DNA from: Sulfurimonas sp. HSL3-1
Lineage (GTDB): Bacteria; Campylobacterota; Campylobacteria; Campylobacterales; Sulfurimonadaceae
DNA length: 64,000 bases
Assembly (NCBI RefSeq): GCF_039645995.1
Contig: NZ_CP147920.1
Coordinates: 992,001 to 1,056,000, forward strand
Direction of reading: 5' to 3'
In this document: piece by piece, positions 14,457-17,833 of the stretch
Numbering within the stretch: position 1 is the stretch's first letter
Layout of the letters: the number at the start of each line of letters is the position of its first letter
Made by a program: the position numbers and the translations under genes
The notes under the pieces: generated by a model
What the model saw: the letters and a program-made list of their open reading frames with translations, nothing else
Told to the model about the DNA's origin: nothing
The model's database searches: none

Positions 14457-14744
14457 ATGTCAAAATCGATGGTTGAGATCAAAACGCTAAAACTGGCGCA
14501 TACGCAAAACGGCACGATCAGTATCGCGCATATCGAGGAGCCTTACGGCAAACACAGCAGCCCGGTGGTCAGCATCGCCATCGCATTGGAAGGGGCATCC
14601 AGCGACTGGAAGGTCCACCTTCCCTACGAAAACATCGATGAGGTGATCAAGGGACTCCAGGAAGCGAAGGCATCCAACGAGGGGATGCCGCATCACGACA
14701 AACATACCGAAGACCTGAATGCCGACACCGGCGGCGGCGCCTAA
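14457..14744 (+). CDS. Unrecognised small soluble protein
   Basis: A 95-residue protein with a strong AAAGGAG ribosome site and no signal or membrane segments. The middle (IAHIEEPYGKHSSPVVSIAIALEGASSDWKVHLP) looks like a pair of beta strands, with a helical patch (YENIDEVIKGLQEA) after it; the tail is polar and rich in Asp, His and Gly. The family is unknown. It ends in a 4-base overlap with the convergent macro-domain gene. Confidence 0.55.
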   Translation: MSKSMVEIKTLKLAHTQNGTISIAHIEEPYGKHSSPVVSIAIALEGASSDWKVHLPYENIDEVIKGLQEAKASNEGMPHHDKHTEDLNADTGGGA

Positions 14745-15286
14745 GAGCGCTCCGCTCCGAAGATGCGCTGCATCAGCATATAGTCGCCTTCGGAGTGCGC
14801 ATACAGTAATACCTCACACTCAAAATCTACAGCACTCCTGAAAAAATCACGATAGATCTCCAGTACACGCCGCTTGTCCAGCCCGCCGACCCCTGTGCCC
14901 ATCAGCGGCAGCGCCAGCGTGACGTTCTTGTCGTGCAGCGCGGCAAAGGAAGCCAGAGCGGTCTGAATGTTATGGAGGATGGTTGTGATCTCCCCTAGCC
15001 GCGGCAGGGCCTCCGTCGCGCCCGGGTTGTAGTCCATGACAGCGGCATGCAGCACGCTGCCGAAACGCGGGCAGCCGCCGGTGGCGACAACATCCCCTTT
15101 CTGCAGCTTTCCCGTTTCCCTTAACGCGCGGGTCATTGCGTTCTGCAGGGCCGGGCCGCAGGCGGCTGCGAACGCGCCCGAAACGCCCGAACCCAATGTC
15201 AGTACCGTATTGGACGGATTGACGATGAAATCCGATGCCGGTGCGTTCAGGAGGTTTCCTGTTCTGAGGGTTACGTGATAGGCCAT
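14741..15286 (-). CDS. Macro domain protein (ADP-ribose-binding)
   Basis: 181 residues that are almost entirely one macro domain. Signatures include LRTGNLLNAPASDFIVNPSNTVL near the N-terminus (the usual N-x-A-N position reads NPSN), GSGVSGAF, a glycine-rich stretch KGDVVATGGCP, and LALPLMGTGVGGL near residue 140. Macro domains bind ADP-ribose or remove it from proteins and nucleic acids. The substrate cannot be decided. TACAAT is 6 bases from the ATG with no ribosome site, so the message is likely leaderless. Confidence 0.85.
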   Translation of the reverse strand: MAYHVTLRTGNLLNAPASDFIVNPSNTVLTLGSGVSGAFAAACGPALQNAMTRALRETGKLQKGDVVATGGCPRFGSVLHAAVMDYNPGATEALPRLGEITTILHNIQTALASFAALHDKNVTLALPLMGTGVGGLDKRRVLEIYRDFFRSAVDFECEVLLYAHSEGDYMLMQRIFGAERS

Positions 15287-15298: not shown

Positions 15299-15391
15299 GC
15301 ATCATCTGCATGGGGGAGGGGAGGGAGCCGATTCATAGATAACATCCATGTCCAGGCGCGGTACCCCTGAAGATCATCATCTTGGAAAAAA

Positions 15392-15443
15392 TGTAGTAAC
15401 TTTAACAAATTACTACAATATGCTTGACACAAAAGTAGTAATT
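15392..15443. promoter_or_regulatory. Half-site array (GTAGTAA) upstream of the integrase-arm/EAL gene
   Basis: TGTAGTAA (15392-15399) and TTACTACA (15410-15417) are perfect inverted arms, 10 bases apart. A third copy, AGTAGTAATT (15434-15443), lies inside the spacer of the promoter for the gene at 15542. Such a set suggests a protein that binds AGTAGTAA half-sites and blocks or controls that promoter. The encoded protein has its own DNA-binding-like N-terminus, so autoregulation is plausible. Confidence 0.55.
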
Positions 15444-15453
15444 GTGCTAGCAT
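15424..15453 (+). promoter_or_regulatory. Sigma-70-like promoter of the integrase-arm/EAL gene
   Basis: TTGACA (15424-15429) is a perfect -35 box, followed after 18 bases by TAGCAT (15448-15453) as a weak -10. It leaves a leader of about 80 bases before the ATG at 15542, with GGAGG just before the start. This is one of the very few clear -35 boxes in the window. The repeat half-site lies in the spacer. Confidence 0.5.
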
Positions 15454-15541
15454 GGAAAAATGTGTGAAACCGTCGTTGCAGTGATGACGGTGCCAAAGAG
15501 GCCCATATGGCCACAAAGAGGATGACTGGACGGAGGGCGCC

Positions 15542-17107
15542 ATGCCGATTCGGACAATTCAGGACAAACACTACAAAGGGATCAGCGAACTCTACCGTAA
15601 GTCTGACGGGAGGGTGACGGGTTACTACGTTACTTACCGCGACGAGGAAGGGAAGCCGGTCAAGCGAAGGGTCACGGCCGATGATAAGGACGAGGCGCTT
15701 CGCAAACTGGTCGACATCAAAGATGAAGTTGACCGACTGAAACAGGAGAAGGCGATGAGCGCGCTCCCCCTAACCTCTGAATACCCGGGCTCGAAGCATA
15801 ACGCGACGGCGGCAGGGGCCGTGGACGTCACGCATGAAGTCCACTCGATGCATGATTGCCAGAAGCAGATCTCCGCGTATGAGGGCAACGCCGTTGTCAT
15901 GCTGATCGACATTGTCGCTTTCGACGACATCCGTATTCTCTACGGATACGAGAACGCGGAGCGGATGGTGGCGGAGCTTGAAACGCAGGTGCGCGCGACG
16001 CTTGGCCGGTTCGAAGAGGACGCCCATTTCCGTGCCCTCGGTTCCGCGCCGTTCGATTTCGACCTCTACCATCTTTATGCCGACCGGCTCTGCCTTTTTG
16101 TCAAAAACGACTTTTCGCACCGCCTGCTTGATTTCATTGCCGAAAAACTCCACGCCTGTGTATCGGAATACGCCTTTCATGTCGTAGGGGGGAACAACAT
16201 CCATATCAATGTCTCAATAGGAGCAAGCAAAGCTGACGGCGCCGTCAGCCTGATGTACGCGGAAAAAGGACTGCAGGAGGCGAAGAGGCTGCACAACAGC
16301 TACATCTTCTATGACAGCGGCTCCGCCGAGCGTAACACCCATTTTTCCAATAAAACCTATGAACTGCTTCAGGAGAATATCGAGCACAAAAGGGTGACGC
16401 CCTATTTGCAGGGGATCTTCCGTAACGGTGAACTGACGAAACCGGAGAAGTTTGAAAGCCTGATGCGGCTGGTAGACCGGCAGGGGCGGGTGCTTTCGCC
16501 GGCGGCTTTCTTGGAGAAGTCCAAAGAATACCGCCTCTACACCGAGCTGATGCTCCAGATGATCGACAAGGTCTTTGACGTGCTGGCGCACTACGACATC
16601 GCGGTGACGCTGAACCTCTCTTATGTCGATATCAACAACGTGCTTTTAAGAGAGCGACTGCTTGAGAGGCTGGCGAAGGAGAAGCGCGGCAACAGGCTGA
16701 CGGTTGAAATCCTCGAGAGCGACCAGATCCGTGACCTGGAAATTGTCAACGAGTTCATTTTCCGGCTGAAAAAGCGCGGTGTTTTGATCGCCATCGATGA
16801 TTTCGGAAGCGGATTTTCGAACTATGACAACCTGCTGAACCTCGAAATCGATTACGTCAAGCTCGACGGATCGCTGATCTCGAATATTCATGACCGCAAA
16901 CACCGCATTATCCTCGGCAACATGGTCAATATCTGCCATGAGCTTGGGATCGAGACCGTGGCGGAGTACATCAGCGATAGAGGGGTGCTGCGCATGGCGC
17001 AGAGCATCGGTGTGGACTATTTCCAGGGGTACCATCTGCACAAGCCGCAGCAGTGGGATGAGGCGCTGCAGAGCTTTGGTTACAGGGAGGCCGCCTATGC
17101 ATCATGA
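15542..17107 (+). CDS. Cyclic-di-GMP phosphodiesterase with integrase-arm-like N-terminus
   Basis: 521 residues, with GGAGG before the ATG. Residues ~10-65 read as three beta strands and a helix (ELYRKSDGR, TGYYVTYRDEEG, PVKRRVTA, EALRKLVDIKDEVDRLKQE), the shape of AP2/arm DNA-binding domains at the N-terminus of tyrosine recombinases. Residues ~110-265 are a GGDEF-like domain without the signature (YADRLCLF stands at the active site), so it should not make cyclic-di-GMP. Residues ~275-515 are an EAL domain with its usual ligands: ESLMR, NLS, VEILES, DDFGSG, VKLDG, ETVAEY and FQGY. Activity as a phosphodiesterase is likely. It overlaps the next gene by 11 bases. The DNA-binding role of the N-terminus is inference. 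Confidence 0.75.
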   Translation: MPIRTIQDKHYKGISELYRKSDGRVTGYYVTYRDEEGKPVKRRVTADDKDEALRKLVDIKDEVDRLKQEKAMSALPLTSEYPGSKHNATAAGAVDVTHEVHSMHDCQKQISAYEGNAVVMLIDIVAFDDIRILYGYENAERMVAELETQVRATLGRFEEDAHFRALGSAPFDFDLYHLYADRLCLFVKNDFSHRLLDFIAEKLHACVSEYAFHVVGGNNIHINVSIGASKADGAVSLMYAEKGLQEAKRLHNSYIFYDSGSAERNTHFSNKTYELLQENIEHKRVTPYLQGIFRNGELTKPEKFESLMRLVDRQGRVLSPAAFLEKSKEYRLYTELMLQMIDKVFDVLAHYDIAVTLNLSYVDINNVLLRERLLERLAKEKRGNRLTVEILESDQIRDLEIVNEFIFRLKKRGVLIAIDDFGSGFSNYDNLLNLEIDYVKLDGSLISNIHDRKHRIILGNMVNICHELGIETVAEYISDRGVLRMAQSIGVDYFQGYHLHKPQQWDEALQSFGYREAAYAS

Positions 17108-17771
17108 CGACAAACAGCTGTCGGAGATAACGGACAAGACGATGCGCCGGCTGATGAACGAAGCGATCGTTCTGCCTTCAAAATACCGGGAGACCTTTGA
17201 AGAGGAGCAAAAGCGTCTGGATGCGTCCCGAGAAGCGGAGGGTGGAGATGCCACGCGCCGTGAGATCGATCTTCTGCGGACCCATCTCTTTTCCGACGAC
17301 ATCACACCGGCGAAAAACCGTCTCTGGCTCTACAAACAGAAGCTCAATGCACGCCAGGGGTTTAACGATGAGGGCTACCTGGTCAGCCTTCGTATCCAGG
17401 ATTACGGGACGATTGTCGATGAATACGACAGCATCATCGGTAACCGGGTTCTGATGCTCGTCTGCAGCTATGTGATCGAATTCCTGAAAATGCAGCGGGT
17501 GAATTTTGAAATTGCCCGCTATGGCGGAGGGGATTTCCTCCTCTTTATGCATCACATTGATGAGGGGGAAGTTGATGCACTTCTAGTCAATATGCAAAAC
17601 GGCGCCGCTAACCATACGTTCAAACACCGCAGCAGAATTTTCGGGCTGACTTTTGATGCCGCCTCAATCCGCTATCTCGAAAATGAACCGTTTGCTACCG
17701 TCATGGAGCAGCTCGAAGAAAAAAGGTTTGAAAAAAGGGTCAAAGAGGGTGGTACCGCTGGCCGGACTTGA
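17097..17771 (+). CDS. Degenerate GGDEF domain protein whose end lies in a tRNA gene
   Basis: The ATG at 17097 has GGGAGG 6 bases upstream and overlaps the preceding gene, so the pair is co-translated. The 224-residue product has a helical N-terminal region (MNEAIVLPSKYRETFEEEQKRL, residues ~20-45), then a GGDEF-like domain. Its signature reads RYGGGDFLLFM rather than GGDEF, with the first acidic residue lost, so cyclase activity is doubtful. The last eight residues and the stop are encoded by the antisense strand of tRNA-Leu (17750-17833), so this end was created by joining to the tRNA 3' end. It may be a regulator or partner of the neighbouring EAL protein. Confidence 0.7.
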   Translation: MHHDDKQLSEITDKTMRRLMNEAIVLPSKYRETFEEEQKRLDASREAEGGDATRREIDLLRTHLFSDDITPAKNRLWLYKQKLNARQGFNDEGYLVSLRIQDYGTIVDEYDSIIGNRVLMLVCSYVIEFLKMQRVNFEIARYGGGDFLLFMHHIDEGEVDALLVNMQNGAANHTFKHRSRIFGLTFDAASIRYLENEPFATVMEQLEEKRFEKRVKEGGTAGRT

Positions 17772-17833
17772 ACCGGCACGTCCGAAGACAACGGATTTTG
17801 AATCCGTCGTGTCTACCATTCCACCACAGCGGC
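17750..17833 (-). tRNA. tRNA-Leu (anticodon CAA)
   Basis: The minus strand folds as a class II tRNA of 84 bases: acceptor arms GCCGCTG and CAGCGGT, anticodon loop TTCAAAA in an ACGGA/TCCGT stem (anticodon CAA at 17798-17800), a long variable arm, a T arm with GGTTCAAGTCC, and encoded ACCA. Base pair 1-72 is a G-U wobble. The 3' 22 bases overlap the coding sequence on the plus strand, an arrangement often seen where integrases use a tRNA end. A -10 box TACAAT precedes it. Confidence 0.95.

Follow-up and report, generated by a model that had tools for sequence, protein, structure and literature searches.

A cluster of GTAGTAA half-sites around the promoter of an EAL-domain gene is a candidate operator for the gene's own integrase-type N-terminal domain

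Three half-sites with a common GTAGTAA core surround a strong promoter upstream of an EAL-domain gene in Sulfurimonas sp. HSL3-1, and we consider it likely that they form the operator of an EAL phosphodiesterase that uses a DNA-binding domain of integrase type to repress its own operon. The half-sites would probably be read by the N-terminal domain of the EAL protein itself. The cluster lies in a stretch of 64 000 nucleotides (contig NZ_CP147920.1, positions 992,001 to 1,056,000 of the forward strand), subsequently called the window, where the cores are arranged around TTGACA-18-TAGCAT. The elements of the locus are, in window positions:

15392–15399, + strand: half-site 1, TGTAGTAA, the upstream partner, whose distance to the core varies among orthologues
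Between half-sites 1 and 2: spacer CTTTAACAAA, 10 bp
15410–15417, − strand: half-site 2, TGTAGTAA on the − strand (TTACTACA on the + strand), directly 5′ of the −35 box; in 16/16 promoters
15424–15429, + strand: −35 box TTGACA, identical in 16/16 promoters
15434–15441, + strand: half-site 3, AGTAGTAA, within the −35/−10 spacer; GTAGTAA there in 16/16 promoters
15448–15453, + strand: −10 box TAGCAT, preceded by an extended −10 TG, its end 88 bp upstream of the ATG
15542–17107, + strand: EAL-domain gene, 521 aa, with an N-terminal arm-binding-like domain, a degenerate GGDEF-like middle part and an EAL domain
15542–15760, + strand: N-terminal domain, aa 1–73, homologous to tyrosine integrase N-termini; predicted beta-beta-beta-alpha
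16367–17047, + strand: EAL domain PF00563, aa 276–502, Pfam E 1.6e-50
17097–17771, + strand: second gene, 224 aa, with GGDEF similarity that stays under the Pfam cut-off; other lineages have a related frame behind their EAL gene
17750–17833: tRNA-Leu, into whose 3′ end the operon runs

The promoter is sigma-70-like, with a −35/−10 spacing of 18 and 10 of 12 letters matching the consensus. Since a promoter scan yields 2 promoter-like sites per 1 kb compared with 0.8 in shuffles, the match alone proves little and its weight comes from conservation. The sequence-only reading had described three half-sites at a strong promoter; these are present, but the literal AGTAGTAA occurs only at the third and the common denominator is the GTAGTAA core.

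The stretch is AT-rich (30% GC at 15385–15455, 57% in the whole window), which could favour chance repeats in an AT-rich promoter. This explanation is hardly credible, as the genome should contain about 2e-5 triples within 50 bp by chance (Poisson, 45 sites in 2.5 Mb) and the cluster is conserved in all 16 orthologous promoters. The motif WGTAGTAA was observed 5 times in the window versus 0.73 expected, and five or more copies were reached in 0 of 100 shuffles; the earlier suggestion that the spacing is more than chance agrees with the expected number of triples. In the HSL3-1 genome WGTAGTAA is not common, as it is found at 45 places versus 148 for the backward-read control pattern. Three of these 45 sites are the operator and two others lie in the window; the 40 others examined fall inside (30) or outside (10) a chosen ORF. 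The genome-wide search for the half-sites that had been proposed shows that they are not frequent and that the paired pattern is unique to the operator: GTAGTAAN{5,35}TTACTAC matches one place, the operator itself, and its backward control none. Searches with exact patterns revealed no second cluster of such half-sites in the HSL3-1 genome.

For EAL genes with the N-terminal domain we found 16 promoters in 15 genomes of three genera, all of which carry TTACTACA-N5/6-TTGACA-N2-5-NGTAGTAA. One genus contributes four promoters, a second 11 and a third one, so they represent about three independent lineages; the frame of one of the 16 EAL genes (G666) is broken. TTACTACA starts 113–136 bp upstream of the ATG, sites 2 and 3 are spaced 22–25 bp and the −10 box lies 17–18 bp from TTGACA (in G613 it was read by eye as TATAAT at 18 bp), and the spacer letters of the operator differ between lineages. 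Within the host genus, four genomes share TGTAGTAACTTTAACAAATTACTACA letter for letter and the DNA upstream diverges. An orthologue in another genus and at another locus (L087/G597), found by its protein, shows the same operator layout with different spacer letters. A further half-site is located upstream of the core within 600 bp in 16/16 promoters, 17 to 147 bp above site 2. The inverted pair with a 10-base spacer and a third copy, as originally described, is present here, but a spacer of 10–15 bp occurs in just 9 of the 16 orthologous promoters, and in the other seven the upstream half-site starts 92–147 bp above site 2. The invariant element is the pair bracketing the −35 box rather than the inverted pair with the 10-bp spacer; the two bracketing half-sites are conserved in every one of the 16 promoters of relatives that keep the gene, as had been anticipated for a functional site.

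A search with TGTAGTAAN{8,14}TTACTACA yielded 13 places in 12 of 398 genomes (backward control: 5 of 398). Four of them are the EAL operon of the host genus and nine lie elsewhere; among the eight of these that were examined, one (L170 in G546, which belongs to another family) turned out to be a further EAL gene with the domain, found from the DNA pattern alone. When the family around G546 was searched, the domain was detected in 14 of 175 genomes, at 12 EAL-type and four integrase-type places. The inverted-pair pattern also matches at least 120 viral contigs, and none of the 80 pattern-matching viral contigs checked contains the domain below E 0.05 (best L217, E 0.055). As many viral contigs match without the domain, the inverted pair by itself has no diagnostic value in AT-rich DNA. 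A shared TGTAGTAA-N12-TTACTACA palindrome was also noticed inside the end of a frame at position 1502 of L159 and L160, from two related genomes, with no domain nearby.

In G003, a genome of the host genus, DNA matching window position 15310 abuts DNA matching 17430, so that the EAL gene, the sites and the first half of the second gene are missing; the paired site patterns are absent from the G003 genome (86% completeness). The operon is likewise absent from the corresponding place in G005. The assignment of the region as a control region for the downstream EAL gene has gained ground in this way, as the sites are nearly fixed relative to the −35 and −10 boxes in 16/16 promoters and were lost with the gene in G003. 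A remnant of the second gene lies beside the deletion (L081, ∼2659–2671). The gene divergent from the operon (window 14741–15286, − strand) appears macro-domain-like by eye, and much of it still has aligning DNA in G003 despite the loss of the EAL gene.

At the tRNA-Leu 3′ end downstream of the operon G004 carries an insertion of ∼5 kb (L083, 7196–12191), flanked by 38-bp repeats that correspond to window 17735–17772; no integrase was recognized by eye among its frames of at least 80 aa. The half-sites could in principle be a mobile-element relic, that is, arm sites that stayed behind at an attachment site in a tRNA gene and have no transcriptional role. The meeting of the operon end with the tRNA-Leu 3′ end, the G004 insert between its repeats and the identical letters of the repeats at integrase loci (see below) speak for such a relic, yet orthologues at other positions keep the sites near-fixed relative to the −35 and −10 boxes and no tRNA was found at the orthologue loci L087 (G597) and L291 (G546), which makes this explanation very improbable.

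The EAL gene and the degenerate GGDEF-like gene behind it probably constitute one operon, a candidate autoregulated phosphodiesterase operon. In L087/G597 the counterparts of the EAL protein and of the second-gene product show 43% and 22% identity, respectively; G546 also has counterparts of both genes, and a frame resembling the second gene by eye follows the EAL gene in seven other loci that were read. Residues E305, N358, E389, D419, D420, K440, E475 and Q495 of the EAL domain, which we take to be the catalytic positions, are invariant in six orthologues, and the gene product probably breaks down c-di-GMP. The middle part of the protein is GGDEF-like but falls short of the Pfam cut-off. In the same six orthologues, four of which come from one genus, the N-terminal domain has 45 invariant columns out of 73, compared with 29 out of 202 for the middle part. 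Pfam finds the EAL domain and no integrase domain PF00589 in the EAL protein and three orthologues; judged by its domains, the protein is not a recombinase. Pfam detects no LuxR-type helix-turn-helix in it either. A riboswitch in the 5′ leader was considered and rejected, as Rfam searches of six loci returned only tRNA-Leu and two sub-threshold matches.

Although no Pfam family name is assigned to the N-terminal part of the EAL protein, sequence searches identify its first 73 residues as a homologue of the tyrosine integrase N-terminal domain. With aa 1–73 alone as query, a search of 100 genomes returned four orthologues of the host genus, followed by integrase genes; the best of these in the single-sequence search were L035 and L036, with E 1.8e-7 per genome. 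Five of six tested domain-bearing proteins contain PF00589, and the sixth (L035, with a broken frame) gave weak core-domain matches only. A profile that included integrase rows found the domain in 46 of 298 genomes of the order, and matching frames other than EAL genes are mostly 360–400 aa long. Within the HSL3-1 genome nothing else matches the domain at E ≤ 0.01, and a protein search found no relatives of it on viral contigs. Among plasmid records, the integrase protein gave 1574 matches, all with an identity below 60%.

The predicted secondary structure comprises strands at residues 13–19, 25–33 and 39–44 and a helix at 49–73, at modest confidence (pLDDT 65), and a single-sequence model of the whole protein (pLDDT 46) gives the same strand and helix order in this domain. 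The order of three strands followed by a helix agrees with the topology that the available part of PMC8138268 gives for arm-binding domains of the Tn916 group. Foldseek with the domain model gave no match at E ≤ 0.001; VIA aligned 50 residues with 1b69_A, the solved Tn916 domain (Z 3.1, rmsd 3.0), at a score that unrelated rows exceed, and the fold similarity to that domain is weak. Direct sequence comparison with solved structures returned no arm-binding domain (best E 0.11 with phmmer and 0.13 with profile A1).

In a midpoint-rooted FastTree of 15 EAL and 21 integrase copies of the domain, the EAL copies group together in a single clade (support 0.867), adjacent to the integrase copies L304, L060, L113 and L036. 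For this tree 28 integrase loci were supplied, of which L035, L048, L050, L062, L111, L303 and L307 were filtered out, and G666 was omitted because of its broken frame. The tree fits a single fusion, a 70-residue tree being weak evidence.

At the loci of closely related integrases, TGTAGTAAAAA is repeated in tandem at a distance of 11–12 bp. Tandem GTAGTAA copies at this distance were counted at 11 of 32 integrase-type loci versus 0 of 26 EAL control loci, the controls not being composition-matched; 40 Markov resamplings gave a mean of 0.025 tandem pairs, and an unbiased count of all tandem 8-mers at integrase-type loci ranks these letters first. Integrase-type loci are those with the domain and without an EAL gene, so the EAL loci L031–L034 and L056–L058 were left out, as were L039 (a chance match in a 602-aa frame read as no integrase), the duplicates L041 and L055 and later loci (from L088–L096 on). 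Ten of the 11 counted pairs are located upstream of the integrase domain, between less than 100 bp and ∼1 kb away, and that of L053 lies downstream; in L045, L046 and L051 the pair lies ∼1 kb from the integrase start. The exact tandem pair is absent at 21 of the 32 loci (for L043, L060 and L070 the sequence holds under 250 bp upstream) and also at L303, L305 and L307, integrase-like frames from the family of most EAL orthologues. The integrase-like frame L304/L088, which stands beside the EAL clade in the tree, has TGTAGTAA and AGTAGTAA 13 bp apart directly before its start codon. Because loci of integrases with the homologous domain often carry tandem TGTAGTAA, the proposal that the EAL protein reads the half-sites with its own domain gains indirect support. 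The arm repeat DR2 of Tn916 Int in the 1b69 complex presumably contains AGTAGTAA; a literature search for the Tn916 arm-repeat letters together with integrase gave no title about them among the matches listed.

At more distant integrases tandem GGGTAGCAA copies are found 11 bp apart (L063, 1475/1486; L065, 1444/1455; L068, 1691/1702), and in L063 and L068 the second copy stops one base short of the apparent integrase start codon. These repeats are possibly the own arm sites of those integrases, which suggests that site and domain drift together. A lone GTAGTAA is located between the integrase gene and a frame resembling a Fic-family protein by eye in L035 (2678) and L036 (444), followed in L035 by promoter-like letters.

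The occurrence of the same letters at integrase loci raises the question of whether another protein, a resident integrase or an unrelated regulator, reads the half-sites instead of the EAL protein. In G004 the EAL gene coexists with an integrase that has tandem TGTAGTAA: across five host-genus genomes the sole match of GTAGTAAN{3,33}GTAGTAA adjoins this integrase, compared with seven matches for the backward control in the same five genomes. Lone WGTAGTAA copies at 42 other places in the HSL3-1 genome could also point to a different reader. Against this, HSL3-1 keeps the sites with the EAL protein as its only domain match at E ≤ 0.01, the paired sites accompany the EAL gene across three genera and several genomic positions, and G003 lacks them, so that we regard another reader as improbable.

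Taken as an operator of the EAL protein, the arrangement suggests the following mechanism. The integrase-type arm-site domain at the N-terminus would bind GTAGTAA, and two protein copies, joined through their EAL domains, would occupy the two half-sites that flank the −35 box. Occupancy of the half-site inside the −35/−10 spacer would then block RNA polymerase, so that the operon would be repressed by its own product. The upstream half-site may add cooperative binding, or looping where it is ∼100 bp away. Autorepression is favoured by the combination of a perfect TTGACA in 16/16 promoters with a half-site between −35 and −10. Binding or turnover of c-di-GMP would probably change the grip on DNA and couple operon expression to c-di-GMP; we expect such a coupling because the EAL enzyme to which the DNA-binding domain is attached has its presumed catalytic positions intact. 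Sensing by turnover of c-di-GMP seems possible in view of the EAL positions, presumed catalytic, that are invariant in six orthologues.

The closest known counterpart in function is PdeL (YahA) of E. coli, described in the accessible parts of PMC5052742 and PMC12564702 as a trigger phosphodiesterase composed of an EAL domain and an N-terminal DNA-binding domain. PdeL acts on its own promoter in a c-di-GMP-dependent manner as an activator, from an imperfect palindrome located relatively far upstream (PMC5052742, available text). The protein studied here likewise combines an EAL domain with an N-terminal DNA-binding domain; action on its own promoter through an imperfect palindrome is predicted, and coupling of its DNA activity to c-di-GMP would be expected by analogy. 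In contrast to the LuxR-type helix-turn-helix of PdeL, a feature of PdeL itself that is not required of every trigger phosphodiesterase, our protein carries a homologue of integrase N-termini and has a degenerate GGDEF-like part between its DNA-binding and EAL domains. The sign of regulation is also probably opposite, as the geometry points to repression. Positive autoregulation as in PdeL, with the same sites bound and the upstream half-site serving as activator site, would agree with the further half-site found within 600 bp in 16/16 promoters. We consider it unlikely, since the half-sites that vary least flank the −35 box and reach into the spacer, where a bound protein would be expected to exclude polymerase. 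Besides, 16/16 promoters already possess a perfect −35 box, and the position of the upstream site varies between 17 and 147 bp above site 2.

Among integrases, the ∼70-aa N-terminal domain with its predicted three strands and helix resembles the arm-binding (AB) domain of the IntTn916 subgroup (PMC8138268, available part; PDB 1b69), and it shares with integrase AB domains the sequence homology to integrase N-termini and the same repeated letters at related loci. Unlike tyrosine integrases, however, it is fused to an EAL domain without a recombinase catalytic domain, and unlike integrase arm sites, which are tandem repeats, its putative sites are inverted and built into a promoter. A precedent for autorepression is intS of prophage KplE1, an integrase gene repressed by its own product from a promoter that overlaps the product's binding region; single arm-site mutations did not derepress it, P′1 being a case apart (PMC2951348, available text). 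Several operator sites may therefore need to be mutated jointly. As proposed here, intS involves a DNA-binding protein that represses a promoter containing its own sites, but there the promoter overlaps attL and the product is a recombinase, whereas here it is an EAL protein.

Regarding the origin of the system, we slightly favour a single capture of an integrase arm-binding domain, together with its arm sites, by an EAL phosphodiesterase, which would have become a c-di-GMP-responsive repressor whose operator consists of former arm sites around a strong −35 box. Such a capture would represent a class of c-di-GMP transcription regulator without helix-turn-helix in Campylobacterota, a part of this proposal to which we give the same slight preference. 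The joint capture of domain and operator is plausible as integrases that repress their own promoters are documented; the direct repeats at integrases versus the inverted sites of the operator are a point against the explanation proposed here. We found no prior description of an EAL protein with an integrase-type arm-binding domain in the open-licence PMC literature, and the word 'integrase' is absent from the available part of the c-di-GMP effector review PMC12564702. If correct, a DNA-grip domain of mobile elements would have been recruited, along with the sites it recognizes, to regulate a host gene, and c-di-GMP control would gain a type of DNA-binding domain that the accessible text of this review does not mention. 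The short and conserved operator makes specificity and c-di-GMP response tractable with one small domain and one 70-bp fragment. Since related integrase loci carry the same letters, the integrase of an incoming element could in principle bind the operator, and strains like G004, with both the EAL operator and the integrase, could provide a setting for such cross-binding.

Further candidate targets were found with the outward pair TTACTACN{12,20}GTAGTAA. In the 15 EAL-positive genomes 24 of 24 places lie within 1.6 kb upstream of a domain-bearing EAL gene, 16 of them being the core promoter and eight located further upstream (backward control: seven places in the same genomes). In three further genomes, G003 and G621 have no such pair and one occurs in G558, where an integrase-like gene carries the domain. 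One of the eight places further upstream, in G657, is a second copy of the operator including TTGACA (L324, 1256–1305), 61 bp before a lipoprotein-like 372-aa frame (1366–2481) with carboxypeptidase-regulatory-like domains, so that the EAL protein may regulate more than itself. Extra TTACTAC...GTAGTAA pairs were observed in L324 (1088–1116), L326 (4384–4412) and L325 (6018–6046), where they sit 92, 96 and 331 bp upstream, respectively, of similar divergent small lipoprotein-like frames, which are possibly under shared control.
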